This document shows, piece after piece, positions 26,346 to 62,794 of a DNA stretch of 64,000 nt; position 1 is the stretch's first letter; every line of letters starts with the position of its first letter. The notes below the pieces were generated by a model. The model saw only the letters and a program-made list of their open reading frames with translations. It ran no database searches and was not told the DNA's origin. The stretch lies in the NCBI RefSeq assembly GCF_008831285.2, contig NC_045145.1, positions 992,001 to 1,056,000 on the forward strand, given 5' to 3'. This DNA comes from Nymphaea colorata (taxonomy: Eukaryota > Streptophyta > Magnoliopsida > Nymphaeales > Nymphaeaceae). The translations under genes were made by a program, and so were the position numbers.

Positions 26346-26347
26346 GA

Positions 26348-26680: not shown

Positions 26681-26975
26681 AGGCTTGAGCATCAAGCTGG
26701 CTGGTTAGATAAGAGTCGGACTTAAGCTAGCACGACACCTAAAACTTGAGTTCGGGCTTGATTCAATTAAAATAAAAAAATATTTTTTAAATATAAAATA
26801 AAATTTTTTACTATAAAAGATATTTTTAATAATAAAATATATATCATTATTAAAATAAAAAGATATTAAAAAATATATTGAATGGAGCCCCGTCGAATCA
26901 ACCCAACTATTTTTTTGGACTTGCTGGATGCTTAGCCCTACGAGGGGAGATAGGCTTGGGTTTGACGATTGAAAG

Positions 26976-27350
26976 TTAACAAAGGCACAGGAGGTCCCAA
27001 CCTTGTGGTTTGTTCAAGCTGACCCCATTTTGGTTTGAAGTTTCGATGTAAGTTGTGCTTACTCTAAACTGACGGAGTTCCAAAGAACTTGTAGTGATCA
27101 ATTCGCATAGTTTTTCAACCCTTGGGCATTTGTTTGGTGTAGCCATTGGCCTAACGGTTGACTGCTCTGTTTTGGTTCTCAGGCTTCTACCTCTTGGTGT
27201 ACGTGCCATCACCCACATCCCAAGTGATCCATTTTCTTCCCTATGAGTTCCCCGGAATCTGCAATCTTCCGTCCTTATGGGTTCGGCACCTAAGGGTTTG
27301 GTACTTCTTAGACAGAGAGAAAGTTGTGTGGGTAAAGAATGGAAGGACAT
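26976..27350 (-). other. 124-codon open frame, unrecognised, in inserted DNA
   Basis: The minus frame contains GMWVMARTPRGRSLRTKTEQ and is open for 124 codons. The sequence between about 26650 and 27330 is missing from the paralogous copy at 58.65-58.69 kb, so it was inserted here or lost there. I do not recognise a protein family and there is no supported start or splicing. Confidence 0.2.
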
Positions 27351-27705
27351 TTTGGTTATTTGTTTAAAAGAAATGTCCTTTACAATCTTTTTATTTTTTT
27401 ATTTCTATTTTTGTCTTTACAAAAAGGTTTTTTTTGTGTGTGAACTATGGGTATTTTAGTTATTAATCATAGTTGCACTGGAAAATTTGTGCACCGGTAT
27501 TGTCCATATTACCAGGTTTGCTATTTGAGGCTTTCCTTCTCGGTTTAGATGGTCTTATTTGTTCACTGCATGAAGTATTGCAGCGTTTCTTGGACAAACC
27601 AAGGCATGATGTATCTTCTTCAGAGAAATGGGCTTGGGCTGAATGGGGTTGCAGTGACCCATGGGATGTTCAATTACTCTATAGCCAGGACACAGCCTCT
27701 GTCTT

Positions 27706-27862
27706 GCCCCTTAGTTATCATTTAGATGGCGGTCCAGACCCACTTCCCTCGTCAACTCCTCCTGCAGCTTGACCATCTCCCTGGGGTTGTGCATGAGCTC
27801 AGCCATGGCCCATTCTATGGCCGACGCCAGCGTCTCGGTGCCACCAAACATCACATCCTGAT
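27706..27862 (-). pseudogene. cytochrome P450 fragment, CYP84 (ferulate 5-hydroxylase)-like
   Basis: The minus strand from 27860 reads DVMFGGTETLASAIEWAMAE and continues LMHNPREMVKLQEELTREVG up to a TAA near 27706. GGTET is the I-helix oxygen-binding motif of P450s, and the whole stretch follows the CYP84A pattern 'DVMFGGTETVASAIEWAMAELM'. CYP84 enzymes hydroxylate coniferaldehyde and coniferyl alcohol in syringyl lignin synthesis at the ER membrane. An AG (TATCAG) lies directly before the first codon, so the fragment may begin at a true exon boundary. The K-helix, PERF and heme-binding Cys regions are absent, so about 50 codons of a roughly 520-residue protein remain. GC is higher than in the flanks, suggesting a recently captured piece. 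Confidence 0.8.
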
Positions 27863-28179
27863 ACTCCATAAGGACAATATTTAATTAATTACAATTAAAC
27901 GCAGCAAAATTTCCTCCACCAATAAGCAAAAAAATAAATAAATAAATAAATTTCCATTTTTTGGTCTTATTATTTTGGATTATTTGGTGGCAAGCGAATG
28001 AAAGATGTTGACCTAATTACTCTGAACCAATCATCTAGATGGACTTATGCAGCCAGCCATATTGGGCCAAACACTTGCACTGTAATTCTCAAACTTTGTA
28101 GAGTTGCTTCTGTCATGACAGCTAAAAATATACTTGTTGGTGGCACTCTACCGTCTGCTGTGAACAAGCAAATGGCCCA

Positions 28180-28181
<2 letters not shown>

Positions 28182-28214
<33 letters not shown>
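28182..28214. repeat. (TA)n microsatellite
   Basis: Uninterrupted TA run of about 33 bases. It is missing in the paralogous region at 58.9 kb. Confidence 0.95.
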
Positions 28215-28217
<3 letters not shown>

Positions 28218-28334
28218 TGTATATTCTATCTTAGTTCACATCTAAAAATAATTTTTTACAAAGCTAATGAATTATGGAACGTTGGAATCGACTGAACAAC
28301 AGTGGTTTTCATTATTTGAAGCAAAGAGTTCAGA

Positions 28335-28735
28335 TTTTTTAAGCAAGCCAACTCCGATTCACTCTTGGCCTCTCTTAGTTAAACTCAGATCGAGCTCAAC
28401 TTATCTAATAAACGAGCCGTGTTTGGGTTAAATTTAAGTAAATGAGTAGAGTTCGAGCTTGGCAAGCTCAACTTACGTAAACTTGAGTAAGATCAATAAG
28501 ATAACATGTAAGAGATTATTTACAATATCATCACGACAATAAACAGCTACATCAGATGTCCCCCTTGCTAGCAAGTTCCAACTCAATTCGGCTGTTTCTA
28601 CTCATGTTCAAATTGATTTTTTTTTTTAAATAATGGCCCGGCTAAGCTTCAGCCCAATCTTGGCCTGAGTTTAGCATCAGCAGTTTGAGTTCGAGTGAAG
28701 TTCAAGCCAACAATGCTGCATATACTTATATCTTA
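28335..28735. repeat. dispersed 'gagctcg' repeat, copy 2
   Basis: Shares long stretches with 59030-59400, for example CTCTTGGCCTCTCTTAGTTA, GAGTTCGAGCTTGGCAAGCT and AATAATGGCCCGGCTAAGCT, including a T-run before the last word. Same family vocabulary as the other 'gagctcg' blocks. Confidence 0.8.
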
Positions 28736-32100: not shown

Positions 32101-32568
32101 TTTTTTCACTGTAGGCGTTTTTTCACTCATTTTTATTGTCAAACTGCTTGTTTCAACTTTCTAATTCCTATCTATTTCTTATCCATTTTTTTAATGTCAC
32201 CTTATTAGTTCCTCATTTATTTGATTTTTCTCTGACTTTTAAGTTTTTTCCATTTTTTCTAAAATGTACCATATTTTCCATTATTTTTATCTGTTTTAAG
32301 CTCGTCCATGAGAAACAGCTCCTCCACTTAAAAGGAAAAAACAATCTTTGTGACTATGGTCGAAGCGCAGATCTGGGAATCTTAAAAAAAATTTCAAATT
32401 GGCAACTTTCATTTGGGTCTGAATAGAGTGGAAAACTGGTAAAGTAAAATAAGATAAGGGCCGCCAACAGAAAGTCTTAGTCTTCTTCAATTTATAAAGA
32501 AACGTGCAAATTTTCTAGAAGTCAATCCATACATAAATTAAAGACCTACCTTCTTCTTCTGTAAGTGC

Positions 32569-33934
32569 ATGTTTTGCATAGAAAATTGGACAGACAAGGT
32601 AACCACCGGCCGGTCACCTTTTCTGCTTACCTTTCTTTTGTGTTTGTCCTCCTTCACCTTCATTGTGGTTCTCTATCAAGGGGAGGTTCCCTCAGCCCTT
32701 GTTTCTCTGAGCAACGTGACTGATCAATTCGCATTGCTGTCTTTCAAATCCCTCGTCACTAAAGACCCTCATAATGTGTTATCAAATTGGAATTCCAACA
32801 TCTTCTTCTGCGACTGGACTGGAGTTTCATGCGGTCGTGGTTCACAAAGGGTAGTTGCTCTGAACCTCTCCGAAAAGGCACTTTAAGGTACTCTCTCCCC
32901 ATACATCATCAATCTCTCCTTCTTACAGGTCCTTGATCTCTTGAACGACAGTTTCCATGGTCAACTTCTCGTTGATTTTAGTCGTCTCCCTCTATTAGAG
33001 AATCTTTTCATAAGCAAAAACAATTTTGAAGGGTTGATCCCACAAACACTGAGCCATTGTCCTCGTATCCAAGTACTTTCAGGGATAGAAAATGAATTTT
33101 ATGGAAGCATTCCAGAGTTCCTAGGCAGTTGGCTGGACACTTTTGCTAGCCTCTCAAAGCTGGAGCACCTTAATATTGGTCAAAATCATATGCACAGGAA
33201 CATCCCTTCCCAGTTGGGAAGCATAACCCGCTTGACATTATTTATTGTCGAAATGAACAATCTCACTGGTACACTACCTAAGAGCTTGTTTAACCTATCT
33301 GCTATTGAGACTTTGAGTTTCATGACCAACCAACTAACAGGGCATCTCCCAAACGATGCTGGCTGCTTCCTGCCCAATCTCCAAGGACTCTATATGGGTA
33401 CAAACAATTTTGATGGCCCGCTCCCGGCTTCTCTTTCTAATGCTACAAGACTTCAACTTCTTGCTGCAGAAAACAATGAATTTAGTGGTACGATACCATT
33501 AGAATTAGGTAGTCTGTCACAACTCAGGCACCTTATCATTTGGGGAAATATGTTGACCAATGTCCCTGGCAACCGTGAGCTCTCCATTCTCACATGCTTC
33601 ACCAACAAGCGACTGCTAGAGGAAGTAGATCTGTCACAAAACCTTCTGAATGGCATTTTTCCGGCCTCTGTTGGACATCTGACAACTACCTTGTGGAGAC
33701 TTCATCTTCCCTCTAATCTGATTGAAGGTACTATCCCATTGGGCTTACCCAACTTGACCAAGTTAATTTCCTTATATTTGAGTTCCCACAAAATAAAAGG
33801 GCTCATTCCACCAAATATAGGACAGATGCACAGCTTACAGCTGTTGTATCTTGATAACAATGCATTAGAAGGCCCCATCCCACTATCGATCTACGAGTTG
33901 GTCCGCATGTATGTTCTTTATATTGATCACAACA
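32569..33934 (+). pseudogene. LRR receptor-like kinase copy A (subfamily XII, FLS2/EFR/Xa21-like), ectodomain only
   Basis: The frame encodes a hydrophobic leader (LLTFLLCLSSFTFIVVL), an LRRNT_2 cap (SNVTDQFALLSFKSLVTKD, CDWTGVSCG) and then about a dozen 24-residue plant LRRs (pattern LxxLxLxxNxLxGxIPxxL), ending at HN near 33934. One in-frame TAA at 32884 (ALEGT in copy B, AL*GT here) splits an otherwise continuous frame. At the start codon used in copies B and C (MATTG) this copy has Lys (AAG), although an upstream in-frame ATG at 32569 exists. After 33934 the sequence jumps to DNA shared with 50560 onward, so the last LRRs, transmembrane segment and kinase are lost. The family senses microbial or peptide ligands at the plasma membrane. 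A truncated secreted ectodomain would be conceivable only if the stop were read through. Confidence 0.9.
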
Positions 33935-33944
33935 TGCCACGAAC

Positions 33945-35040
33945 ACGAGTTGAAGGTTTAATGCTTTGTAAAGTGTTTGCATCACATTTCATGCATGTGT
34001 TTTTTTCTTGCCTCTGGCCACCTAACATGTCCTTGAATTTGACAAATATTTTATGAAATTTGACCGATAATTAAGGCCATCGCACATAGTTGATATATTT
34101 TACAACTCACCTACCTCCAAACATTTCATTGAATCCTGATTAGATATTCGGCTAGAGGTTCAACAGCGCTCAGGCTTTTTCTTCGTAAGTCCGTGTCAAT
34201 GCTGCAAACTGTAGGGTCCTAGTCTGTGCAGAAAAATACAAAAGAAAAAGACTTGAGCTTCTTTTTCAAAGAAATCAAACGTGGATTGGTCCCGTAATGG
34301 ATCTGAAATTTCATTGCGCATGAAGAAAAATCAAGGAAGATGCTCTTTCTTTCCAAATGCGAGGACAATATTTGTCTAATTTTTTCAAGGAAATCAAACG
34401 TGGGTGGGTCCGGTAACGTATGGCTGATTACATGCATGAGTATTTTTCTTGGTCTTGCCGGTATCTTATTTCTCTTTACCCCTTTTCAACTCTATTCAAT
34501 TTCAAACCAAAGTTGTCAACTGTCAACTTTTTTTTTTAATGTATCCATAAATAGGTTTCTACCATAATCACAAATATTCTTTCTTGCTCTTTAAACAGGG
34601 AAGTTTATCTATCATATAATACAGTGAGCATGAAAAATGAAAGCAAAAAATGCAAAAAAAAATATGGTAACTTTCTAAAAAATTGAAAAAAATATGAAAA
34701 AGACAGGAAAACCACATTTTTTATGTATCCTTTTGCCGTTTTATTCAGTGGGCTTATTTTTGTGTTTTATCACTGTTTTTTCAAAAAAAAAAAGATGTGA
34801 TTTTTATGACTATATTTACTACCAAATTTTGGTTGTCATATCTCACAACCTATATGTAAGCAGGGGTTTTCGTTAGTCATGAAAATGTTTGCAACTACTA
34901 CGATGCTTGATTAGTGCAACATGGGGAACCATGATAGCACGAATGGCATAGTTGCATCAAATCTTCGCTAGCACGACTGGATGGGATTAGCTAGAAATAT
35001 TATTGGCTTGAATCGGCCGGGCGCTTCAAGTCTTTGATAA
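33945..35040 (+). repeat. segmental duplication Z, copy 1 (partner 50560-51105)
   Basis: Shares GAGTTGAAGGTT, GGCTGATTACATGCATG, AACCAAAGTTGTCAA, GGTTTCTACCATAATCA, GTAACTTTCTAAAAAA and GAATGGCATAGTTGC with 50560-51105. It is noncoding. It begins exactly where receptor copy A is truncated. Inside it, TTTTCAAGGAAATCAAACGT echoes TTTTCAAAGAAATCAAACGT about 120 bp earlier. Confidence 0.85.
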
Positions 35041-35355
35041 GTCATTTTGATCAAGTCCACCTGTTTTTAAAAAAAATGTTTTAATTAGTTTTTATACTGT
35101 TTAATTACTATTCAAAAAGAATATAATTTTTCATATTTTATGCGACCTTTGCAAATTCAGCTTTTGAAACGAGTGGATAAAGTTACTAACTTCCACGTGC
35201 TGGTCGATCCACTGATTTAAACGATTTGGATGTTAATCAGCACAAAATATGAAAATTATATTCTTTTGAGAAATAAATAAACAATCTATATAAGATAATA
35301 AAAAACAATAATTTTTTTTTAAATAGGTTGGACTAGATCAAATTGATTTAGCATA
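35040..35355. repeat. repeat R: partial plus copy abutting a minus copy (inverted pair)
   Basis: A plus-oriented partial copy (TCCACCTGTTTTTAAAAAA to AATATAATTTTTCATATTTT, 35058-35145) is followed directly by a minus copy (CAGCTTTTGAAACGAGTGGA to ATCAAATTGATTTAGCA). Together they form a large inverted repeat upstream of receptor copy B. Confidence 0.75.
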
Positions 35356-38300
35356 GATTTGAATGAACCAGCCAATTCGAGCAATTTTTTGGAAAAAAAA
35401 TGCCACACCAAAGATATGCTTTTTTCCTTTTTTTTTGTTTTTTTCCCTTTTTTTCATTTGAGACATTTTTTCATACTTTTTTATTGTTAAACTGCTCATT
35501 TCCAACTTCTAATTTTTATTTGTTTCTCATCTACTTATTTTTTTAAATTTGCCAACCCTTCATCTTATTTTCCCTTAACTTTTAAATTTTACTCAATTTT
35601 TTAAAAATTTACCACATTTTTCCTGTTTTCTCCATGCTAACCATATTATAAGATAGAAAAACCTTGCCATTTAAAAGGCAGACAGCATATCTAGGGAAAA
35701 AAGACGTTCAATTGACAACTTTGATTTGGAATTGAATAGAGTTCAAGTGGTAAAGGGAAACAATAAAGAGTCTCATTTATGTAATCATCAGCTGTGCCCC
35801 TAGATTTGGAAATATGAAGCAATGCATTCCAAAGCAGTAAAACCCGAGCCTTCTACCACTTGAAAAAATAAAAGAACAAATTTTCTAGAAGAGAATCTAT
35901 ACATAAATTAATGACCATGAATTCCTGCACATGCATGTACTGCATAACAAGTTGGACAGGCATGGCTACCACCGGTCGGTCACCTCAACTGCTCGTCTTT
36001 CTATTGTGTTTCTCCTCCTTCAACTTGGTTGTGGTTCTTGGCCAAAGGGAGGTGCCCTCAGCCCATGCTTCTCTGAGCAACGTGACTGACCAACTCGCAT
36101 TGCTGTCATTCAAATCCCTTGTCACTAAAGACCCTTATAAGGTGTTATCAAATTGGAATTCCAACATCACTTTCTGCGATTGGAATGGAGTTTCATAAAT
36201 GGTAGTTGCTCGGAACCTCTCTGAAAAGGCACTTGAAGGTACTATCTCCCCATACATTAGCAATCTCTCATTCTTACAGGTTCTTCATCACTCAAAAGAT
36301 AACTTCCACGGTCATCTTCCCATTGATTTTAGCCGCCTCCCTTGGTTGCAAAAACTTTCCATATGGAGAAACCATTTTAAAGGGTTAATTCCACAAACAC
36401 TGAGCCATTGTCATCATCACCAAGTGCTTTTTGCAGCAGAAAACGAATTCTATGGAAGCATTCCGGAGTTCTTAGCAGTCTGCCAAAACTCAAGTTCCTA
36501 AATCTTTATGATGACAAGCTCACGGGCACCGTTCCAGTCACTTTTGCCAACCTCTCCAAGCTGAAGCACCTTAATATTGGTCAAAATCAAATGCACGGGA
36601 ACATTCTTTCGGAGTTGGGAAGCATAACCCGCTTGCAATTCTTTAGTGTGAAAAAGAATAATCTCACTGGTACACTGCCAGACAGCTTGTTTAACCTATC
36701 CGCTCTTCAGACTTTGAGTTTCATGACCAATCAACTAACAGGGCATCTCCCCTAAAGATGTTGGCCGCTTCCTGCCCAATCTCAAATTGCTCGCAATGAG
36801 TGACAACAATTTTGATGGCCCTTTCCCACCTTCTTTTTCCAATGCTACTAGTCTCCAAACTATAAGTGCAGGACACAATAAGTTCAGTGGTCCGATACCA
36901 TTAGAATTAGGTAGTTTGACACAACTCAGGCACCTGTACCTCCACGACAATATGTTGACCAATGCCCCCAGCAACCATGAGCTCTCCATCCAGTCTGACA
37001 TCCTTCACCAACTGTCGACAGCTAGAGGACGTTGATCTACTACGCAACCTTTTGAACGGCATCCTTCTGGCCTCTGTTGGAAACCGGACAACCACCTTGT
37101 GGAGACTTCGCCTTTCCTCTAATCTGATTGAAGGCACTATCCCATTTGCCTTAGCCAACTTGACCAAGTTAATTTCCTTAGATTTGAATTCCAACAAAAT
37201 AAAAGGGCTCATTCCACCAAATGTAGGACAATTGCACAGCTTACAGGTGCTTTCTCTTGGTAACAATGCATTAGAAGGCTGAATCCCACTAACAATCTAC
37301 CAGTTGGTCCGCATGTTTTCTTTTTATATTGGACACAACATGCTAATTGGGTGAATTTCAAACTCCATAAACAATCTTACTAGTTTGCAAGCGCAGGATC
37401 TAAGCTCAAACAATTTGTCATCAACATTACCGCCTGGTCTTTGTGAGTTGAAGGATTTGTTGGTGCTATACTTGCAAGGCAACTCTTTCAAAGGTCACCT
37501 ACCTCTGGGTCTTGGGAATTTTGCCATGATGATCAACATGGATATCTCTGTAAATAAGCTGAGTGGAGAGCTGCCTTCACTATTATCAAAGCTCCAAATG
37601 CTAGAGTATTTGAGCCTCTGTCAGAACGCATTTGACGGTAACATTCCTCAACAACTTGATCATATGGTAACCATTAAATCTATTGTCCTTTCCCATAACA
37701 AACTTTCCAGTGAGATACCAAAATCATTGGAGAAACTTCAATACATCCAGGTGTTAGACTTGTCCTCCAATTGATTAGAAGGAGAGATTCCAAGTGGTGG
37801 AAAGGTTGCAAACCTTTCTGCTGGGTCATTCCTAGGGAACTATGCACTATGTGGAGCTCCCAAATTCCATGTCCCTTTGTGCTTAGACAAAACAGAGAGG
37901 CAAAGTAAGAGCAATGTGGCTAGAGTCATTGCTGCTTGCGCAATTGGTGGCTTAGCACTTTTGGTCATTGTTTGCACACTCATTGGTATCTCATGCTATA
38001 GAAAGAGGGGGTTGTCGAAGCGTCCTGACGACATTGAAAGATTACGATGAATTACACTCCTAATGATTTTTTACAGAGAGCTATTGCATGCAACGAGCAA
38101 TTTCAGTGATGCAAACTTTCTTGGAAGTGGAAGCTTTGGCTCAGTGTACAAAGAAATTCTATTAGATGGAAGGACAGTGGCTGTTAAGGTCCTTAATTTG
38201 TCATTTGAGAGAGCATCTAAAAGTTTTGACATTGAATGCACTATCTTGCACCAAATCAGGCACCAAAACCTTGTTAAAGTCATTACGTCTTGCTCTAATG

Positions 38301-38608
38301 AAGATTTCAAGGCTTTAGTTCTCCAATACATGCCCCTTGGCAGCCTAGAAGTCTATCTACATTCAGGTGCCCATCATTTGAATCTCTTCCAAAGATTGGA
38401 TATCATGATTGATGTTGCTTGTGATTTAGAGTATCTTCACCATGGTTACTCGGGGATGATATTTCATTGTGATCTGAAGTCATGTAATGTACTTCTAGAT
38501 GAAAGCATGTCTGTGTACATTGGTGATTCTGGCATTGCAAAGTTTATAGTTGGTGCAAGTCATCGACTCTTACCACCACCCTTGAAACCATGGGTTACAT
38601 TGCGCCAG

Positions 38609-38891
38609 GTACTATCTCTTAATTTGTTTTCTTTTCATAAATTGTCTCTCTTGATGTGCAAGTATATTGACCATTTCTTTGAGTCAACACAGGAAGACTC
38701 ATAAATTGTCTCTCTTATATGCGTGTGTGCACTCTCTCTCTTCAATAATGCTCTGATGGAGAGATTGAGAAAGGGAGGGGGAGTGTATGGAAGGGGTCCA
38801 AGAGAGGTGAGGTGAAATAAAGAGAGATAGAGAGAGAGAGTGGTTTTGACAGTTCTAGTGGGCTGTTTTGTCTTTTTTTTCTTTTCTCTCT

Positions 38892-40020: not shown

Positions 40021-40375
40021 AATTTGGGTTGGCTGGAAAGGTGTCAACCAATGCCGATGTCTACAGCTACAGAATTCTCCTCCTTGAGGTGTTTACAAGA
40101 AGAAAGCCTACTGATGAACAGTTTGATGGGGATTTTAGTTTGAGGCAAGTGGTGGCTGAAGCATTTCCTGTTGCACTTTCAGAAGTCATTGACAGCAATC
40201 TTTTGAACGAAAGTAATACTACTCCAACTCAGCTGCTATGAACAAGCAGCTGGTGATGATCTTGGAGATAGGCTTGTCATGTTCAAGTGTGTCTCCAAAT
40301 GAGAGAATGGACATGAAGGAAATGGTTGTAGGGCTGCGAAGGATACGACGGAAGACAAGAATGATAGAAGGATAA

Positions 40376-41430: not shown

Positions 41431-41703
41431 TTTATAAAGCGAAGGAAGGAAATTCTTTTTAAAGGAAAGTATTTCATAAACTTTTATCAAGACACTTAGA
41501 GAGAGTCAGATAAAGATTTTTAAGAGAGAGAAAATATAGATAGAGAAAAACTAGTAAAAGAGCAAGAGATTTTAAGAGAAAATTAAGAGAGAGAGAAATA
41601 AAAATTTATAAGTGAGTGGGAAGAAATAAAGCGAAAAACTGGTAGAAGAGAAAGAGATTTTAATTGAAAAACTAGTAGAAGAGAAAGAGATTTTAAGAGA
41701 AAA

Positions 41704-41740
<37 letters not shown>

Positions 41741-41990
41741 AAATATTTTTAAGAGAACAATGTGTGCAAGAGGGATAGAGAGATGAAGATTTTGAAAAGA
41801 AAGGAAATAAATAAAGAGAGAAAAAACTAGTAGAATAGCAGAAGATTTTAAGAAAAAATTAGAGAGAGAGAGAGATGTAAAGATTTTTAAGGGAGAGAAA
41901 AGAAATAGAGAAAGGAAAATTTGTGAAGATAGATTTTAAGGGATAATTAGAAAGATATAAAGATTCCAAGAGAAAAAAATGAAAAAATGA
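41430..41990 (+). repeat. purine-rich GA/AAGAGA array
   Basis: Repeated blocks of AAGAGAAAAACTAGTAGAAG, GATTTTAAGAGAAAA and (GA)n. It starts with the same sequence as 57500-57720 (TTTAAAGGAA, AAACTTTTATCAAGACA, GAGAGAGTCAG), which marks the right end of both duplicated blocks. Here the array has expanded to about 560 bp. Confidence 0.85.
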
Positions 41991-43840
41991 GGAAGATTGA
42001 TGAAAAAATGATTTAACAACGAGATATTTTAAGCCCTTTTTTTCTTATATAGAAATTTAAATTTATGAGATAATTTTGAAAATTTTCAACTTCAATATTT
42101 TTATGTAAGCAGGGGAGGAACTTGTGCTTCAATCCCGTTAGGATGACACTCTTTTAAAGGTGGATCACTGCTTTAAGACTACAAATAGGATGATCAATAG
42201 GTATTTTCTCAAGGGAATGAGGATTTGAAGGATGTAAACTAATTGTTTCTTCCCTGATTTGGACTATCCCCAACCTCAAAAATCAATATAAAAGAAAAAA
42301 AATCCAACCACAAGCTCTCATCCTCATCGTTCATCCATCTATCAACAGAAAAATCAACTGGCGAAACATGCACATTTTCTATCTGTAGAGACATAACGAA
42401 GGCATAGATTCAATGGAAGGTGAAAAATAAAAATAATTTTTTTTAAAAAAAAAACATATCATGCCTATTTGAGTTGAACAAATAAACAAGACTTGGTTCA
42501 CGTTGCTCATGGCTGTTAACTCTAAATAAGAAATTTCAAGAGCTCACTTACATGGCCATGGGGAGATGATGAAGGGAAGAGAAAGAAAAAATGAGATTGC
42601 ATGCCTCACGATGGTATGTGCTGGGGTGAAAGATTCCCCAACCTGATAAAAAAAACTTGCTTGGCTAAGCTAGGCTAGGCTAGGTTGGCCTGACTCTGAG
42701 TCGGGTATAGGAGGCCTAATTCTGTTCAATATACACATTTAAACCCCACCTCTCCACTTTTATTTTTTTTGTTCTTTCTCTCTCTCTAAAATCTTTTTCA
42801 CCATAACGCCAACATTTGGCTTCCTTATTACGTTGATTCTTTTTAAAAGCTCTTTGGTGCATCCCCAAACATCTCTTAAAAAGTAGTGATGTGTCGCCAA
42901 AGGTTTTGAAGATATTAGAAAAGGAAACTTTTTAGTTTTAAATAAAAGTTGACATCAAACCGGCTACATGACGGACAGAAGCATGATGGTCTGACTCTGC
43001 CCAATAACTGATAAGAAGACCTTCATGAATGCATAGAGCCCGATTTTATTGAGCATCAGACCAACCCCACCCAACCTGATGCACAGCCCTAGAAGAATTA
43101 AAGGCGTTGTAGTATGTGCTGGGGTAAGTCACAAGCGAGCTCTATTAGAATAGTGTTTTATAGGACAGTGGTTCCTGAGTGGGCATTATTTTCATATTTT
43201 AGTTAGGAAATTTGGGTCAGGCTGAGATACCGGAGAAACTTTGACATAGAACCTACAAAAGGCATTCATGAAGTTGGTTAATGAACACAAGTTCATACTT
43301 GTAAGTAATAACACATTGCACCAAAATTTTGTGTCAGTATGGTTAATGAATATGTTCCTGTTTAAATAGAAAAAAGAAATTTGTTTTACAGATAAAAAAA
43401 ATTGAAAAAAGTGAAAAAGCTGAAAAAGACAGTTCGTTTTCTGTAATTTCAAAGGTGCCCCCTTTTTGTTTTTCTTTTCGCATATGATTGTTGCATGCAC
43501 TGGCCAGTGCACACAACTCGAACTACTCTTTTGAGTCCCACCACCCCCTTCCTCCCTTTCTCTTATACGTTTTCTGTATTCCTTTATTGTTTTTGACAAT
43601 TATTGCAAAATCATAGACAATTTGTCACTTAATTATATGTTCTCTCTCTCTCTCTCTTTCTGCCTTTATCTAGATATCATGCCTTTCCATGTAACGTAAA
43701 CAAAAGAATTGGAACTGCCCAGTCATTTACTTGGTAAGATGGATAGACTTTAAATGTCATTTTCCATCTTGATCACATGCCCAATTGAACCGTTCCAAAA
43801 AAAAAAAAACAGATATGGGAAAGAAATTAATCTCTGACTA
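41991..43840. other. noncoding between duplicated blocks
   Basis: AT-rich. Contains a short CTAGGCTAGGCTAGGTT run at about 42670, (CT)n at 42775 and 43640-43660, and a 135-codon minus frame at 43192-43599 that is Lys/Phe-rich with no recognisable family. I see no gene. Confidence 0.4.
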
Positions 43841-43849
43841 AAAAATGAA

Positions 43850-44100
43850 TCGTCTTCGCACTTAAGAAATAACATTCGACTGGATTCAGATTACGATATA
43901 TATAAGTATCAGATCGGATACGGATTCAGATCATATTTAGTTTTAAGTAATTAATCATATCCAATGCTCTTACATTTTGAAAATCTTCTAGATACAGTTC
44001 AAAATTCGGATTCGGATTGTGAAACCAGATCTTGAATTCAGATTCAGAGATGACATCTCTCCATTCCATTAAAATCTGAGTTCGAATACCAGTATGTGAA
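43850..44100. repeat. degenerate GATTCAGATT-type repeat, leading fragment
   Basis: TATATATAAGTATCAGATCG, AGTTTTAAGTAATTAATCAT and many GGATTCAGAT and GATTCGGATT words. The same string recurs at 44600-44710, directly before tandem unit 1, so the receptor remnant D at 44197 lies between two copies of this sequence. Confidence 0.75.
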
Positions 44101-44196
44101 TACCTAAAGAAACGGACATGATGAAGAGTATACCCAATTTAAATCCAATCCATCAACATCCCAAGAACATTGCTTTAGACAGAAAAAGAAAGAAAG

Positions 44197-44469
44197 GCAC
44201 TGGGGGCCGAAGCACTTCCCGTACCAATCTCAGATGTCATTGATGGCCATCTTCTCCAGGAAAGCAATGGTACTGCAACAGAAAAACTGACTGCTTGGAA
44301 TGAGCTGTTGGTGATGATCATGGAGATAGGGCTGTCATGTTCATGGGAGTCATCATTTGTAAGAATGGACATGAAGGAGGAAATCGCCGGGCTTAAAATA
44401 ATACCCCTGAGCCTAACGAGTGACATCCCCAAATCTTGGGCATGGTTGCACAGTGAAGATCAAAGATGA
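44197..44469 (+). pseudogene. LRR receptor-like kinase remnant D: C-terminal kinase lobe
   Basis: The frame is open for 90 codons and ends in TGA: EALPVPISDVIDGHLLQESN, then NELLVMIMEIGLSCSWESSF and RMDMKEEIAGLKII. It matches the end of copy B (EAFPVALSEVIDSNLL, MILEIGLSC, RMDMKEMVVGLRRI), which is the kinase C-lobe of subfamily XII. The rest of the gene is absent on both sides and flanking repeats replace it. The remnant carries fewer lesions than B and C but is the most diverged in sequence, so it comes from a different paralog. Confidence 0.85.
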
Positions 44470-44691
44470 GGGTCACAGTCGACTCTAAGTTGAATATCTC
44501 AAGTCATCCTCTCCTGCTTTTGAATCTGCTAAGAATAATTTCTATCGCATAACCAGAAGGCCACAACCCAAATCTGACTAAGAAATGGATTGTCTTCGGG
44601 TTTAAGAAATAACATCCGACTGGTTTCCGATTCAGATTCTGATATATATAAGTATCGGATCAGATACAGATTCAGATCAGATTTAGTTTTA

Positions 44692-46210
44692 AGTAATTAA
44701 TCATATCCAAAAGGCCACCACCCAAATATGGAACCATTTCTCAATGTCCACAAGCTCCAGCATGCTAAAACTGTTGGAGAAGCTGAAGTTATTCGGCAAC
44801 CTTCTCATTAAGAACATCGTGAACAGTCATCACCGACACTCTTGGAGGAGATGGGAGGACTCAAAGAGAACGATTGACCATGGTTTTCTTGAAAATCGAT
44901 GGACCTAAATACAAAAATAAAAGTGCAAAATATTAGAATACGATTCGACTTTGGATACGAATGACCAGGGATCCGATTCAAATAAAATACATTCTTGACA
45001 GTATGGCTACTTATATACTCAGATTCGAGCTTGGATACGAATTTAAAAAAGAAGTTATATCCAAATTTGAATCCCAAATCAGATTCCACAACCTGAATCT
45101 GTTCTCTTTCCTCGTCCAAAACTGAATCGAAAATCAGATTTCATAATTTGAATCTGAGCTAAATCCATTTTTTTCATCCTAATATGAATCTGAAATCAGA
45201 TGTCACAATCAGAATCCAATCCAAATCCGATTTTTATATTCATATTTGAATTTGAATCTGAATCCATATTTTGAACCGAATCTGGCTCATTTACAAACTG
45301 TAAGAGCTTTGAATACAGAATTTTTATTTAAATATAAATCCCATCTGGATCTGATCGGATATTTTTGCATATTTGAATCTAAATCTGAATTCGATTGAAT
45401 ATTTTTATATGACTAAATCTAAATCCGTTCGGATATTTATGCATACATGAATCTAAATCTAATCGGACGTCATTTCTTAATTTCAAATCCTATCTGATTT
45501 TTTAGTTGATTAGTAAATTTCTTTTCTTCATCCAAATGTTTTTGAAACACTTGGCTTGGACATTCAATTCAAATCAGAGTCAACTCAAGCTGGACTCGAA
45601 TTTGCCCTGTTAAGCTCAAGCTTAACTCAATACTCACGATTATAAACAAGTGAAGTTCAAGTTTTATAAAATTGATTTGATTGAACTTGAGTAAACCATT
45701 TATCTAGGAATTCTTTTGAAAATTTTCAAACTAAAAACCAAAAAAAGAAATCAGGTCAAATGGGGAGTTGGTAAATGAGCTTAAAAGAGTCATGCTCGAG
45801 CTGTGGCTTGGTCTATCGGATGGAGTTCGAGCTGCCATTGTATAGCTAACTCGAGCTCGAGCCAAGCTGAATGAGTTCAATTTTGACTCGGCCCTTATAT
45901 AGCCCTACAAGTGGATCAAGTGTGTTCTGTAGTGGTGTGAGGTGCCCGTGTATTGAGAGTGCTCACAGCATGAGCAACTGTCAATGATTCACTTCTTAGT
46001 TTTAAGTTCGACAGCACAAGTGATGAATCTTTAAACTTTTAGGTGGCATCCTCCCTCAAAAGGATATAATGAGATCATTCTCCTAAAAGATGTTCCCTTC
46101 GTCCAACTGACCTCAGAATGGATCACTTTGGCCCCTTAAAAAAATTTTAAAAACATAATGGGTTCAGTGACTGCTGTTGGAGTGTTGAGTCTTATCCATA
46201 CTTGATAGGC
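44692..46210. repeat. 1.5-kb tandem repeat, unit 1
   Basis: Starts TTTAGTTTTAAGTAATTAAT. Order inside: a 230-bp unique-looking head (AAGGCCACCACCCAAATATG, AGCTCCAGCATGCT, AACATCGTGAACAGTCATCA), a GAATCTGAATCC-rich stretch, a 'gagctcgag' stretch, then a tail with CATGAGCAACTGTCAATGAT and CTCAGAATGGATCACTTTGG. Length about 1,519 bp. A minus frame (44808-45119) is also open in the other units. Confidence 0.93.
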
Positions 46211-47739
46211 TTTAGTTTTAAGTAATTAATCGTATCCAAAAGGCCACCACCCAAATATGGAACCATTTCTCAATGTCCACAAGCTCCAGCATGCTGATAC
46301 TCTTGGAGAAGCTGAAGTTATTCGGCAACCTTCTCATTAAGAACATCGTGAACAGTCATCACCGACACTCTTGGAGGAGTTGGGAGGACTCAAGAGAATG
46401 ACTGACCATGGTTTCTTGAAAATCGATGGACCTAAATACAAAAATAAAAGTGCAAAATATTAGAATACGATTCGACTTTGGATACAAATGACCATGGATC
46501 CGATTCAAATAAAATACATTCTTGACAGTATGGATACTTATATACTCAGATTCGAGTTTGGATACGAATTTTAAAAAAAAATTATATCCAAATTTGAATC
46601 CCAAATCAGATTCCACAATCTGAATCTGTTTTCTTTCCTCATCCAAAACTGAATTAAAAATCAGATTTCATAATTTGAATCTGATCTAAATCCATTTTTT
46701 TCATCCTAATATGAATCTGAAATCAGATGTCACAATCAGAATCCAATGCGAATCCGATTTTTATATTCATATGTGAATTTGAATCTGAATCCATATTTTG
46801 AACCGAATCTGGCTGATTTACAAACTGTAAGAGCATTGAATACAGAATTTTTTTTGAAATATAAGTCCCATCTGATTCTGATTGGATATTTTTGTATATT
46901 TGAATCTAAATCTCAATTCGATTGAATATTTTTATATGACTAAATCTGAATCCGTTCGGATATTTATGCTTATATGAATCTAAATCTAATCGGACGTCAT
47001 TTCTTAACTTCAAATCCTATCTGATTTTTTAGTTGATTAGTAAATTTCTTTTCTTCATCCAAATGTTTTTGGAACAGTTGGCTTCGACATTCAATTCAAA
47101 TCAGAGTCAACTCAAGCTGGACTCGAATTTGCTCTGTTAAGCTCAAGCTTAACTCAAAAATCGCGATTATAAACAAGAGAAGTCCAAGTTTTATAAAATT
47201 GATTTGATTGAACTTGAGTAAACCATTTATCTAGGAATTCTTTTGAAAATTTTCAAACTAAAAACCAAAAAAAGAAATCAGGTCAAATGGGGAGTTGGCA
47301 AACAAGCTTAAAAGAGTCATGCTTGAGCTATGGCTTGGTCTATCGGATGGAGTTCAAGCTGCCCTTGTATAGCTAACTCGAGCTCGACCCAAGCTGAATG
47401 AGTTCGATTTTGACTCGGCCCTTATATATAGCCCTACAAGTGGATCAAGTGTGTGCTGTAGTGGTGTGAGGTGCCTGTGTATTGCGAGTGCTCACAGCAT
47501 GAGCAACTATCAATGATTCACTTCTTAGTTTTAAGTTTGACAGCACTCGTGCTGAATGTTTAAACTTTTAGGTGGCTTCTTCCCTCAAAAGGATATAATT
47601 AGATCATTCTCCTAAAATATGTTCCCTTCATCCAACGGACCTCAGAATGGATCACTTTGGCCCCCTCAAAAATTTTTAAAAACATAATGGCTTGAGTGAC
47701 TGCTGTTGGAGTATTGAAGCTGATCCATACTTGATAGGC
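46211..47739. repeat. 1.5-kb tandem repeat, unit 2
   Basis: Same order of landmarks as unit 1, about 1,529 bp, differing by scattered substitutions and small indels. The corresponding minus frame is 46359-46646. It ends GATCCATACTTGATAGGCTT, directly joined to unit 3. Confidence 0.93.
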
Positions 47740-49265
47740 TTTAGTTTTAAGTAATTAATCATATCCAAAAGGCCACCAACCAAATATGGAACCATTTCTC
47801 AATGTCCACAAGCTCCAGCATGCTGATGCTCTTGGAGAAGCTGAAGTTATTTGGCAATCTTCTCATTAAGAACATCGTGAACAGTCATCACCGACACTCT
47901 TGGAGGAGTTGGGCGGACTCAAGAAAACGACTGACCATGGTTTTCTTGAAAATCGGTGGACCTAAATACAAAAATAAAAGTGCAAAATATAAGAATAGGA
48001 TTCGATTTTGGATACAAATGACCGTGGATCCGATTCAAATAAAATACATTCTTGACAGTATGGCTACTTATATACTCAGATTCGTGTTTGGATACGAATT
48101 TAAAAAAAAAGTTATATCCAAATTTGAATCCCAAATCAGATTCCACAATCTGAATCTGTTTTCTTTCCTCGTCCAAAACTGAATCCAAAATCAGATTACA
48201 TAATTTGAATCCGATCTAAATCCATTTTTTTCATCCTAATATGAATCTGAAATCAGATGTCACAATCCGAATCCAATCCGAATCCAATTTTTATATTCAT
48301 ATATGAATTTGAATGTGAATCCATATTTTGAACCGAATCTGGCAGATTTACAAACTGTAAGAGCATTGAATACAGAATTTTTATTTAAATATAGGTCCCA
48401 TCTGGTTCTGATCGGATATTTTTGCATATTTAAATCTAAATCTGAATTCGATTGAATATTTTTATATGACTAAATCTGAATCCGTTTGGATATTTATGCA
48501 TATATGAAGCTAAATCTAATTGGACGTCATTTCTTAATTTCAAATCCTGTTTGATTTTTTAGTTGATTAGTAAATTTCTTTTCTTCATCCAAATGTTTTT
48601 GGAACAGTTGGCTTGGACATTCAATTCAAATCAGAGTCAACTCAAGCTGGACTCGAATTTGCTCTGTTAAGCTCAAGCTTAACTCAAAACTCGCGATTAT
48701 AAACAAGTGAAGTTCGAGTTTTATAAAATTGATTTGATTGAACTTGAGTAAACCATTTATCTAGGAATTCTTTTGCAAACTTTCAAACTAGAAACAAAAA
48801 AAGAAATCAGGTCAAATGGGGAGTTGGTAAACGAGCTTAAAAGAGTCATACTCGAGCTGTGGCTTGGTCTAACAGATGGAGTTCATGCTGCCCTTGTATA
48901 GCTAACTCGAGCTCGAGCCAAGCTGAATGAGTTCAATTTTGACTCGGCCCTTATATAGCCCTACAAGTGGATCAAGTGTGTGCTGTAGTGGTGTGAGGTG
49001 CCTGTGTATTGAGAGTGCTCACAGCATGAGCAACTGTCAATGATTCACTTCTTAGTTTTAAGTTTGACAGCACTCGTGCTGAATGTTTAAACTTTTAGGT
49101 GGCTTCTTCCCTCAAAAGGATATAATGAGATCATTCTCCTAAAATATGTTCCCTTCATCCAACTGACCTCAGAATGGATCACTTTGGCCCCTTCAAAAAT
49201 TTTAAAAACATAATGGCTTCAGTGACTGCTGTTGGAGTGTGGAGTCTGATCCATATTTGGTAGCC
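47740..49265. repeat. 1.5-kb tandem repeat, unit 3
   Basis: Same landmarks again, about 1,525 bp. It ends GATCCATATTTGGTAG and then leaves the repeat. The minus frame is 47919-48188. A plus frame (47802-48182) exists only here and is not conserved in length. Confidence 0.93.
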
Positions 49266-49689
49266 TTCCCTAATTTTTGTAAGGGTATTTATATAATTTT
49301 TTATTTGGTGGGTTTTGCTCTAATCTCATGTTTAAGAGGACATCGTTTTAGCTTGTACTTTGTAATTTTTTTCTGATAGTGAAAACTGCTTTGTGTGGTG
49401 GCCATGGACCTAAGAAAACATTGTCTCAAAACCATGTAAAATCTTTGTGTGTTCTTTCCATGTCCTTCTTTTCTTCTGATTCAATTTTCTTGGTGTGTTA
49501 AGAAAGTGAGAGAGAGAGAGAGAGAGAAAGAGGGAGGGAGAGTTTGTTCACACCGGATGTTCTAAAAACAAAATGTAAACTTAGTCTCCTGTTTGTTTGT
49601 GGAGATGGACTTTTGTGACAACATATTGTATTCTTGGAATTCCATCCATTCCATCCATTGGTTTTGGCTTGGGTGTGTATAACCCCCCA
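49266..49689. other. noncoding spacer
   Basis: A (GA)n run at about 49506-49530 (GAGAGAGAGAGAGAGAGA) gives a false Ser/Leu frame on the minus strand. Nothing else recognised. Confidence 0.5.
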
Positions 49690-50460
49690 TCTAGGACTGG
49701 CTAATAGTACTTTAGATAGACCCACAGATACAACACACACACCAGGCAGGGACTGAGGCAGGGGTGCCGGCAGAGGCCTTGGGCCCCCACAGTCAAATTT
49801 AAAAAATTAAAACATTGATATGTAAATTTCATAAACCTTAGTTTAACGTATATAAAAATTTTTTATTCCAGTCTCTGTTAAAATTTGGAAATTATAGTTC
49901 AGTGCTTGCTACCAAAAAATTTCTGGCTCCACCTCTGACACACACATTCCAACATATACAGTGCACTGATATGCTTGTGCAAGTAATGTTGATCATTTTT
50001 TTCTTGTGAATTAAATATTTGAGTACTGGTTATGCTATAAGTCGCCAAGGAAATGAATGTCAAATAATATGCTTTTTGGCTCCTTCGGTCTTACGTAGAA
50101 ATTAAGCTCTCTTTTTGTGCAGTTTAACTGCTAACATGTATCTGTATCTTTTGGTTTGTTACCTTTCGTGTGCTTTTGAAGGGTTGAGTCAATTCAAGGC
50201 AAACATCACCATGAATATCAGCATTAATCTGCTAATCTTTCTCCATTGCACAGATTGATTTTGCTTAACAAACGCAGGGGACCTAATCCCTAGCAAGCTG
50301 TTCATACAACATAAATTCTGCTTTTGACTAACAAGGTAACACAATCAAATGACACACAGCATTTCTTTCACTTCTGTTTTGAGAAATTTGGTGGTGATTC
50401 TGCCATTGACTGTTGAATGTTTGTTTCTTGGTCCTGATCAGGAAGAACGACCGAGAAATA
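49690..50460 (+). repeat. segmental duplication Y, copy 2 (partner 29505-30300)
   Basis: Collinear with the first copy. It contains an extra insertion-like stretch near 49745-49790 (GGCAGGGACTGAGGCAGGGG, GGGCCCCCAC) that is GC-richer than its surroundings and absent at 29570. Confidence 0.85.
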
Positions 50461-52880: not shown

Positions 52881-52917
52881 CTGCTCATCCATGTTCTGCA
52901 TAACAAATTGGACAGCC

Positions 52918-54648
52918 ATGGCAACCACCGGTCAGTCACCTAGGTTTGAGTTCCAACAAAATAAAAGGGATCATTCCACCAAACATAGGACATATGCACA
53001 GCTTACAGATGCTTTCTCTTGATAACAATGCATTAAAAGGCCCAATCCCACTATCAATCTACCTGTTAGTTCACATGTTTATTTTTTATATTGAACACAA
53101 CATGCTAATTGGGTCAATTTCAATCTCTATCAACAATTTCACTAGTTTGCAAGCGCTGGATCTAACCTCAAACAATTTGTCATCAGCACTACCGCCTAGT
53201 CTTTGTGAGTTGAAGGACTTGTTGGAGCTATACTTGCAGGACAACTCCTTCATTGGTCACCTGCCTTTGGGTCTCGGGAGTTTTGCTATGATGATTGACA
53301 TGGATATCTCTGCAAACAAGCTGAGTGAAGAGTTGCCTGCATCATTATCAAAGCTCCAAATGTTAGAGTATTTAAATCTTTCTCATAACACATTTGTTGG
53401 TCACATTCCTGAACAACTTGATCACATGCTAGACCTTGACACTATTGACCTTTCCCATAACAATCTTTCCGGTGAGATACCAAAATCATTGGAGAAACTT
53501 CAACACATCTAGGTCTTGGACTTGTCCTTCAATCTATTGCAAGGAGGGATTCCAAGTGGTAGAAAGCTGCAAACCTTTCTGCCGAGTCGTTCCTAGGGAA
53601 CTATGCACTGTGTGGAGCTCTCAAATTCCATGCCCCATTGTGCTTAGTCAAAATAGAGAGTCAAAGTAAGAAAAACATGTCTAGAGTCGTTGCCGCTTAC
53701 TCCAGTGGAGGCTCAGCACTTTTGGTCATTGTTTGGATACTCAATGGTATCTCATGCTATAGAAAGATGGGGTTGTCGATGCATCATGATGACATTGAAA
53801 GGTTACGAGGAATTACACTCCCAGTGATTTCCAATAGCTATTGCATGCAATGAGCAATTTCAGTGATGCAAACTGTCTTGGGAGTGGAAGCTTTGACTCA
53901 GTGTAGAAAGGAATTCTAGCAGATGGAACAACAATTGCTGTTAAGGTCCTTAATTTGTTGTTTGAAGGAGCATCTAAAAGTTTTGATATCGAGTGCACTG
54001 TCATGCATTAAATCAGGCACCGAAACCTCGTTAAAGTCATTATGTCTTGCTCTAGTAGAGATTTCAAGGCTTTAGTTCTCCAATACATGCCTCTTGGGCG
54101 CCTAGAAGTCTACCTACATTTGCATGGCCATCACTTGAATCTCTTTCAGAGATTGGATATCATGATTGATGTGGCTTGTGCTCTAGAATATCTTCACCAT
54201 GGTTACTCGGAGACTATAGTTCATTGTGATCTGAAGCCAAGTAATGTGCTTCTAGATGAGAGCATGACAGCATACGTTAGCGATTTTGGCATTGCAAAGA
54301 TTCTAGTTGGTCTGAAGTCTTCTACTCTTACAGCGAGTCTCGGAACCACTGGATACATTGCACCAGTTACGTACTATCTCTTATTTTTTGGTCTTTTTAT
54401 TAATTTTGTGTCTCTCAAAGTGAGTATAATTGCCTGTACCGTTTCTTGAGTCAACCTGGCCTGGCTTTGAGTTCTTAAGTGTGTGTCTGCATGTGTGAAC
54501 ACACTCTCTTTCTCTTTAATAATGCTCTCATAGAGAAAGTGGAAGAGAAGGTGGGATTGCATGGAAGCGGCTGGAGAGGTGATGAGGTGAGATAAAGAGA
54601 GACAAAGAGAGAGTGGGTAGGTTTTCCAGTCCTAGTGGACTCTCTCTT

Positions 54649-54952: not shown

Positions 54953-55935
54953 GTTCCTGGCTTATGTGATTTAACTAATTATACTCTTCTGTGGTTTGCA
55001 ATATATCATCAATAAATATATTAATTGATATGAAAACACCCATGATCTATCTAATCATCATGATTTGGTAGTTCACACATAAAGACATGCACAAGTGGTT
55101 TGTAGCTCAATAATGTAAGGGTCATTGATAAACTATTTTACATGGACAATGCATTCGTTGATCTGTACACATTAGTTGTTTGCGTGTCCTCAATAGACAA
55201 GAATCTTCAATTGACCTTCTTCTTTTAACAGAAGTTATAAACTTTTTTCCTTTCTTTTATAAAAGAATCCTAATCGTAAACACCTTTCTACCTAATGGCT
55301 TAAGACTGGCTAACAATTGGCACTACTGAATAATTCACTCGATTTAGGAGCCATTTAAGAGAACCTTGAGATAGGTCAACAGTAACCACATCTAGATCTA
55401 AATCATAATCTTGTATTCTTTTTTAGATGTATATTTGAGAATACAACAAGAGAAAGGCAGGATTGGAGGTTCAATTGATCTTAAGTACATTAATTTTCAG
55501 TCCTCTTGCCCAAAACCAATTAGTGCAATTGTGTCATACATGAGCTAATTATATTTTGCTTGCTAATCATGTCTAACATTGTTGAGTGGTTGAATTAGAA
55601 TTTGGGATGGCTGGAAAGGTGTCAGAGAAAGCCAATGTCTACAGCTACGGAATTCTCCTCCTTGAGGTGTTTACAGGAAGAAAGCCTACTCATGAACAGT
55701 TTGATGGGGATTTTAGTTTGAGGTAATTGGTGGCTGAAGCATTTCCTATTGCAATTTCAGATGCCATTGACAGCCATCATTTTAATGAATGCAATACTAC
55801 TCCAACTGAAAGATCAGCTGCTATGAATGAGCCGCTGGTTAGGATGAGAACGACCAGAATGAGAGAATGGACATGAAGGAAGTGGTTGTAGTGCTGAGAA
55901 CGATACGACAGAAAACAAGAATGATGGAAGGATAA
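52918..55935 (+). pseudogene. LRR receptor-like kinase copy C (subfamily XII), internally deleted and disabled
   Basis: ATG at 52918 encodes MATTGQSP, then the sequence jumps near 52942 straight to the LRR text SSNKIKGIIPPNIG, which in copy B lies about 1.2 kb further on. The rest of the signal peptide, the LRRNT cap and most LRRs are deleted. About eight LRRs remain, followed by the Cys pair, a transmembrane stretch (GGSALLVIVWILNGISC) and a kinase with intact [11 protein letters not shown] and SDFGIAKIL. Lesions: TAG at 53510, 1-nt loss near 53562, 5-nt loss near 53832, TAG near 53905, TAA near 54008, and a 4-nt TTAC insertion at the donor (CCAG-TTAC-GTAC). Exon 2 begins at 55601, has a Q-to-TAA change near 55723 and lacks about 46 nt of the EIGLSC segment. 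The kinase motifs are better kept than in copy B, yet the gene cannot make a receptor. Confidence 0.92.
54873..54949. repeat. (AT)n microsatellite in copy C intron
   Basis: About 76 bases of AT repeats. A second short (TA)n follows a (CT)n at 54645-54685. Confidence 0.95.
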
Positions 55936-58250: not shown

Positions 58251-58494
58251 AATATAGTCGATAACCAGATTAGAGGGTAATTGGATCAGAACTCTGATAA
58301 ATTGAAGTATTTGATATCCCAAATTGTTGAAAATAATTGTGAAAATGCTAGATATATATGAAACTTGAAAACTTGGGGGTACTTACAAGGTTCAGCCAAT
58401 TTATTAGGATCATGTAGAATGTCAATGGGAGCTGTCAGAAGAATATTAAGATTCATAAAATCTACCGTTCATTATGGTCTAATCTTCAAAGTTC

Positions 58495-58985
58495 AAACCA
58501 TCCAAGAACAAAGTTCATAGGCCGAATGCCCAAATGATCGATCGATGGTCAACATTTATGCAGCCTTCTTGGGACTGAATCTTGTTGCAGGAAATTCAAA
58601 GAAACAGCAAGTTGTTTCTCAGTCTAACATAGCGGCGGATCAAATGTCATGCAGTGGCGAACATAGCAGACGTTATGCAGCAAAGGATGGAAGGACATTT
58701 TGGTCATTTGTTAAAAAGAAATGTTCTTTACTTTTTTCATTCTACTTTTGTCTTTACAAAAAGTTTTTTTTAAGTGTCAACTAAGGGTATTTTAGTCATT
58801 AACCATACTTGAGCACAAAATTTTGCACCACTATGGCGCATATAACCAGGTTTGCTATTTGATGCTTTCCTTCTCAGTTTAGATGGTCTTATTTGTTCAC
58901 TGCATGAAGTATTGCAGCATTTCTTGGACAATCCATGGCATGATGTCTTCTTCAGTGACACACGGGATATTCAATTACTCCATAG
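58495..58985 (+). repeat. segmental duplication X, copy 2 (partner 26280-27680)
   Basis: Collinear pieces: CAAACCATCCAAGAACAAA, GAATGCCCAAATGATCGATC, the copia RNase H fragment (58547-58650), GGAAGGACATTTTGGTCATT, TTTGTCTTTACAAAAAG and GTTCACTGCATGAAGTATTG. Relative to copy 1 it lacks about 650 bp (26.65-27.33 kb), and after 58985 it lacks the P450 fragment. Confidence 0.88.
58547..58650 (+). pseudogene. Ty1/copia RNase H fragment, second copy
   Basis: NLVAGNSKKQQVVSQSNIAA parallels the fragment at 26348. It is shorter and stops before the CDN.SA block. Its presence in both copies of block X dates the copia truncation before the duplication. Confidence 0.8.
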
Positions 58986-59029
58986 GAGGACGCCGCCACA
59001 GTATTATAAATGTTTATGAGTAGAGCCAT

Positions 59030-59400
59030 CTCTGGTTCACTCTTGACCTCTCTTAGTTAAACTTGGATCGAGCTCCACCCATCTAATAAACAAGTCGTGT
59101 TCGGGTTAAAGTTAAGTAAACTAGTAGAGTTTGAGCTTGGTAAGCTCAGCTTACGTAAACTTGAGTAAGATCAATAAGATAAGATGTAAAAGATTATTTA
59201 CAACATCATCACGACAATAAACAGCTACATCGGATTTCCCCTTGCTAGCGAGCTCCAAATTCTCAAATTCTAACCTGGCTGTTTCTAATCATGTTCAATT
59301 TTTTTTTTTTAAATAATGGCCCGGCTAAGCTCCAGCCCAATCTGGGCTTGAGTTTAGCATCAGCAATTTGAGTTTCATGCCGAGTTTGAGCTAGTCCACT
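59030..59400. repeat. dispersed 'gagctcg' repeat, partner of 28335-28735
   Basis: Collinear with the first copy over most of its length (CTCTTGACCTCTCTTAGTTA, GAGTTTGAGCTTGGTAAGCT, AATAATGGCCCGGCTAAGCT). Confidence 0.85.
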
Positions 59401-62128: not shown

Positions 62129-62686
62129 ATGGCTGCGTCATCTTTGTCCAATGTCTCTTCACCTGCTTCTGCTGCACCAGGTACACAATGGAATGCTTTC
62201 TCAAGTTTGGTTTCAATTAAGTTTGATCGATCAAATTATCTCCTATGCACTCTCAAATTTAAAGTGTTATGAAAAGTCAAAATCTGATTAAGTATGTGAA
62301 TAGAAAATGTTCTGCGCCTCCTGAATTTCTTGATGAAGCACACACTCAAGAAAATCCTGCTTATGTGTTATGGTATCATGAAGACTAACTTGCATTAAGT
62401 TGGATCAAAGTCATTGTGACTCAACCAATCATGTCACAACTGGTTTGTGTTGGCACCGCTAGAGATGCTTGGTGCATCCTTGAAAAACAGTATGCCTCAC
62501 AAAATAATTTTCATATTATTCAACTCAAACAAGAACTACAAAACGTCAAAATAGGAGGACTGTGTATGACTAATTATCTTCAACATATCAGTTTATTACA
62601 TGATTCTCTTAGCACTGTGCAACATTTTGTTTCTGATACAGATCTAGTTCTCCATACTCTGAATGGGTTGAGTTCTGAATATGAAT
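62129..62686 (+). pseudogene. Ty1/copia gag (Retrotran_gag_2/UBN2 type), truncated
   Basis: ATG at 62129 starts MAASSLSNVSS and continues FSSLVSIKFDRSNYLLC, the usual 'KLDRSNYLLW' opening of copia gag. A frameshift near 62270 moves the frame, after which it reads LIKYVNRKCSAPPEFLDEAH, SQLVCVGTARDAWCILEKQY and LVLHTLNGLSSEYE, all typical gag blocks. One stop (GAC TAA) occurs near 62386. At about 62686 the sequence changes without transition into receptor-kinase intron DNA, so the zinc knuckle and pol are missing. Confidence 0.88.
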
Positions 62687-62794
62687 TGTATGGGAGGGGT
62701 CCAAGAGGAGGTGAGGTGAAATAAAGAGAGGTAGAGAGAGTGAGTGGTTTTGCAAGTTCTTGCGTGCTGTTTTCTCTCTTTTTTCTTTTCTTTC

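Follow-up and report, generated by a model that had tools for sequence, protein, structure and literature searches.

A three-unit array in a receptor-kinase cluster of Nymphaea colorata: a probable local tandem triplication of spacer sequence

Introduction

Plant resistance and receptor gene clusters undergo local tandem duplication, unequal exchange and spacer reshuffling, and local duplications of such a kind are frequent in plant gene clusters. Here we describe an array from Nymphaea colorata that lies in a setting of this type. Like the duplications of plant receptor clusters, the array points to unequal exchange and to reshuffled spacers in a row of receptor genes; unlike them, the repeated segment consists of spacer alone, and no gene was recognised inside it.

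Two described systems are close to this array. For composite satellites, a 2025 review (PMC12628747) proposes an origin of the monomers in mixed transposon debris that became tandemised. For maize, another paper (PMC3648361) describes the tandem repeats CRM1TR and CRM4TR, whose origin is attributed to illegitimate recombination; each derives wholly from one retrotransposon subfamily, and gene conversion is given as the main source of variation.

Like the 'TE graveyard' composite monomers of the review (PMC12628747), the unit described here appears to consist of fragments of several decayed repeats that were tandemised as a block; unlike them, it has three copies in the window and lies in a gene cluster, not in established heterochromatin. 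The units share with CRM1TR and CRM4TR (PMC3648361) one end inside an LTR (tentatively LTR-like here), but the unit is mixed and a conversion signal was not seen. By analogy, the array may be regarded as a small-scale instance of the process that gives rise to composite satellites and CRM1TR/CRM4TR. We consider it likely that the array arose by local tandem triplication of a seemingly noncoding stretch of spacer, composed of several decayed repeat fragments, within a tandem cluster of LRR receptor-kinase genes or pseudogenes.

Results

Architecture of the array

The window is the whole stretch of 64 kb that was analysed, and all coordinates refer to it. It holds three whole copies of the unit, arranged head to tail with boundaries at 46210/46211 and 47739/47740 (Table 1). 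The first-pass annotation had described three tandem, near-identical units of 1.5 kb, and pairwise alignment confirmed them at 94.8-95.2% identity. Substitutions number 79, 80 and 74 in the three pairs, whose alignments span 1527, 1526 and 1525 columns (identity 94.83, 94.76 and 95.15%), with 3, 4 and 5 gap openings in the same order. The array starts 10 bp earlier than first reported, at 44682. Tandem Repeats Finder was used with a longest period of 500, which put the 1.5-kb period outside its reach.

A profile built from the three units was run across the window with E up to 0.1. It returned nine rows: the three units, a relative of the head, four inverted rows and one further weak row at 43937-43964 (E 0.018). 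The row 48210-47987, inverted inside unit 3, is also weak (E 0.059).

Table 1. Positions of the array, the parts of unit 1 and related sequences in the window
Feature	Start	End	Strand	Remarks
Inverted degenerate relative of GAATC section	43775	44153	-	profile 44018-43775, E 1.6e-14; 44153-44007, E 8e-6
Inverted partial copy of GAATC section	44573	44701	-	profile row 44710-44577, E 1.6e-7
Unit 1	44682	46210	+	1529 bp
Unit 1, leftmost 29 bp				common to unit start and older copy 43936-43964
Unit 1, head	44711	44940	+	~230 bp
Unit 1, GAATC-rich section	44941	45570	+	~630 bp, 30% GC
Unit 1, 'gagctcgag' section	45571	45915	+	~345 bp
Unit 1, tail	45916	46210	+	~295 bp; last 36 bp = LTR-like start
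Unit 2	46211	47739	+	1529 bp
Unit 3	47740	49266	+	1527 bp
LTR-like sequence TGTTGG...AAACA	49230	49570	+	341 bp; end placed by eye, tentative
Head relative	59578	59738	+	matches unit 1 part 44780-44939; profile E 1.3e-38

Composition of the unit

Partial profile rows never span two sections, so the unit is read as a mosaic of head, GAATC section, 'gagctcgag' section and tail, and not as one element. Section limits within the unit were placed by eye. The sections are candidate old, decayed repeat fragments, with a putative origin in transposon debris.

The stretch of degenerate words noticed in the first reading was far above chance. In 580 bases of unit 2, GAATCY occurs 12 times, whereas 1000 dinucleotide shuffles gave 1.06 on average and never more than 5; RGATTC, the opposite-strand form, did not exceed chance in this unit (2 occurrences, with a mean of 0.6 and a maximum of 4 in shuffles). 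Tandem Repeats Finder gave degenerate inner periods of ~34-40 and 62 bp for this section. Among the literature matches listed for GAATC-type strings, none was about plant repeats, judged by title.

The 'gagctcgag' section was recovered in units 1 and 3 as word-rich bins, and no bin of unit 2 reached two words. The 250-base bins with at least two words of this type are 45751-46000 (4), 48751-49000 (4) and 18251-18500 (2), the last of which is unrelated to the array. This section is at most a weak foldback: its single-strand fold has a z of -2.15, with 2 of 100 shuffles equally good, and its two halves aligned to each other did not score above shuffles (19, with a maximum of 24 in 200 shuffles). 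A strong hairpin at 44560-45540 was also considered and set aside, the fold barely beating shuffles (z -1.76, 1 of 20 equally good).

The array segment is apparently noncoding. No Pfam domain was found up to E 0.1 in the six frames of 47740-49800 (unit 3 and its right flank) or of 41700-44700; for units 1 and 2, Pfam was looked at in single frames. A protein-coding head was rejected: a 143-codon frame in unit 3 matches Pfam Myb_Rap1 only below the cut-off (E 0.086, 13.7 bits versus 27.1), and the corresponding frames run for 71 codons in unit 1 and 59 in unit 2 before a stop. No Rfam family reached its gathering score in the window, ARAGORN (bacterial code) found no tRNA, and a single sub-threshold snoRNA match in 43700-49800 (E 0.43) was dismissed as evidence of a structured RNA. 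Most likely, the array has no function of its own and is a by-product of rearrangement in the receptor cluster.

Junctions and origin of the triplication

Both inner junctions are identical (GATAGGC/TTTAG, the slash marking the join). At the outer edges of the array, the two unrelated parents of this junction are kept unjoined, as CAGA/TTTAG on the left and GTAGCCT/TCCC on the right, which fits the expectation for a tandem duplication. One novel junction, repeated between units and with its parents unjoined at the outer edges, is the pattern of a tandem segmental duplication. The 20 bases past each outer edge agree with the matching unit end at 5 of 20 positions, so long homology at the first join was not seen. 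Little or no homology, as in illegitimate joining, was thus found. The overlap of ~2 bp is at chance level, since two cuts placed at random in the window have at least 2 bp in common in 18% of cases, and microhomology-driven joining is therefore not claimed.

The right breakpoint lies 37 bp into a sequence at 49230-49570 that we tentatively take to resemble a retrotransposon LTR. Its first 36-37 bp form the end of every unit, and it continues only after unit 3. The sequence has TG...CA ends and differing flanks (ACTGC versus AAATG). A target-site duplication around it was not found, nor was a second copy (partner LTR) in the window, and a primer-binding motif with up to 2 mismatches gave just two matches in the window, at 36889 and 61199, which does not exceed chance.

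The left edge falls into an older feature. The segment at ~44573-44701 is apparently a copied insert between direct repeats, CATAACCAGAAGGCCACAACCCAAATCTG (44548-44576) and CATATCCAAAAGGCCACCACCCAAATATG (44702-44730), which agree at 25 of 29 bases (alignment score 38, with a maximum of 24 in 300 shuffles). The stretch 44573-44710 is 86% identical to 43833-43964, and the right repeat copy has CATATCCA in common with a possible donor, which we infer to lie near 43.96 kb. Break repair or template switching could have copied such a piece in, or it could be a small insertion that made a long target-site duplication. All three units start within it, so it predates the triplication. The inverted relative at 43775-44153 aligned to the GAATC section with a score of 76, against a maximum of 30 in 100 shuffles. 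Together, the older insert and this relative appear to show an earlier rearrangement at the locus. The inverted relatives at 43775-44153 and 44577-44710 were absent from the first-pass annotation. Between these two GAATC-family copies, 44201-44378 is a further, diverged copy (73%) of a segment that the receptor blocks contain at 40150-40320 and 55726-55910.

The triplication probably proceeded as follows. The ~130-bp GAATC-family insert and the LTR-like sequence would already have been present when a break-repair or replication error connected two breakpoints, one 37 bp into the LTR-like sequence and the other within the insert. The first product would have been two tandem units, and unequal exchange between them would soon have given three, which then diverged independently to ~5%. 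Amplification by unequal exchange had been proposed before, and it accounts well for the gain of the third unit, given the identical junctions and equal distances. If the array did arise in this way, the locus illustrates on a small scale how mixed repeat debris turns into a tandem unit, and the junction parents, the relative order of the steps and the absence of later homogenisation are directly visible in it. The triplication changes no general view.

Divergence of the units

The aligned units vary at 115 sites, spread about evenly over them. Units 1, 2 and 3 carry 41, 35 and 37 unit-specific substitutions, and 2 sites differ in all three. The bootstrap intervals for unequal unit distances all include zero, and the units are equidistant. 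This suggests that the second step was quick, that a single event made all three units, or that early exchange equalised them. The K2P distances of 0.050-0.054 would correspond to ~2 My at 1.3e-8 and to 10-11 My at 2.5e-9 substitutions per site per year, general rates that may not be those of the host. Gene conversion between units was rejected, the singleton labels being unclustered (73 runs versus 76.1 expected, p 0.29). Methylation-type decay was rejected as well: G>A plus C>T make up 33 of 113 singletons versus 28 for A>G plus T>C, with no strong bias.

These data bear on the reading of the array as an early satellite, either one of several arrays or the seed for longer ones. The head-to-tail units, fixed junction and composite monomer are as in the 'TE graveyard' proposal of the review cited above (PMC12628747). 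However, the window contains only three units, which differ by 5%, a fourth whole copy was not found within its 64 kb, and the unclustered unit-specific sites give no signal of homogenisation. An early satellite is very improbable. The earlier phrase 'satellite in formation' could here only mean a three-copy array; the array is ordinary, of modest note as a possible early composite tandem repeat.

Edges of the unit

The array had also been proposed to be an amplified nonautonomous element, and we considered a transposable element of this type that was either inserted or amplified in tandem. Relatives of unit parts do occur nearby (the inverted GAATC-section copies and the head copy), and the weak foldback of the 'gagctcgag' section would suit such an element. 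However, the relatives in the window cover separate sub-sections and never the whole unit. Terminal repeats were not seen at the unit edges: the region 43700-46300, which holds unit 1 with its flanks, contains 10 inverted pairs of 16 nt or more, and none of them links one unit end to the other. Two of these pairs, I4 and I7, have one arm across the left edge, but the second arm lies within the GAATC section. Comparison of the outer flanks by eye (...GATCAGA versus TCCCTAA...) showed no target-site duplication. The left edge falls inside another insert and the right edge inside the LTR-like sequence. Because the edges look like arbitrary breakpoints, we rejected the transposon reading for the whole unit and consider it very improbable. 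Of the first overall reading, unequal exchange is retained and a nonautonomous element for the whole unit is not.

The tail of unit 3

Unit 3 is the copy closest to the downstream receptor block. Its tail shows a pattern that plain neutral drift predicts poorly and that counts against a wholly inert array. Over columns 1156-1505 (48893-49239 in unit 3), 23 consecutive singleton sites contain 0 unit-3-specific substitutions (permutation p 0.003 over all three labels). Gap column 1465 lies inside this run; there unit 3 is gapped, and units 1 and 2 differ. Selection on the tail at 48893-49239 is possible, and chance also remains as a reading of the sequence. A bolder joint claim would see here the birth of a composite satellite: its patchwork monomer would still show both founding breakpoints, it would have started at a site that inverted GAATC-family copies had already destabilised, and selection would have kept the unit 3 tail as a regulatory piece of the receptor gene that follows; taken as a whole, this is highly improbable. 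An assembly artefact is likewise highly improbable, since a falsely repeated segment is expected to be near identical and the units differ at 115 aligned sites, and the near-constant 1.5-kb period makes a haplotype duplication unlikely.

Setting in the receptor-kinase cluster

The preferred reading, a local triplication of spacer, places the array inside a tandem cluster. Its position between receptor blocks, as first described, agrees with two sets of LRR and kinase domains, one at 32.5-38.7 kb and one at 52.9-54.4 kb. These domains are in separate frames, and the copies (32542-38704 and 52904-54449) could be either intron-containing genes or pseudogenes. Parts of 29.6-41.7 kb recur in 49.8-57.7 kb, and three collinear pieces connect 26.3-28.7 kb with 58.5-59.4 kb. 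Between these collinear segments (26276-28707 versus 58490-59391), the intervening stretches differ greatly in length. The second receptor block, which resembles the first from 49696 onwards, comes directly after the array.

The lone head fragment reported at 59.58 kb is real: it matches the units over 153 bp with 86% identity and starts 187 bp after the cluster segment 59020-59391. Three neighbouring segment pairs are 92.7, 84.4 and 87.1% identical, and the other pairs of at least 500 bp between the cluster blocks are 67-83% identical. Since the 86% identity resembles that of the neighbouring pairs and the fragment adjoins a cluster segment, the head is probably cluster spacer sequence and the 59.58-kb copy its paralogue. 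The unit profile did not find a head relative in the first cluster spacer (28.7-29.5 kb), which counts against the simple version of a paralogous spacer. The letters just past the head relative, at 59.74 kb, suggested a copia LTR, but it could not be established. Copia-type fragments occur elsewhere in the window, with reverse transcriptase RVT_2 at 22285-22788 (E 1.3e-12) and gag at 62389-62724 (E 4.7e-9).
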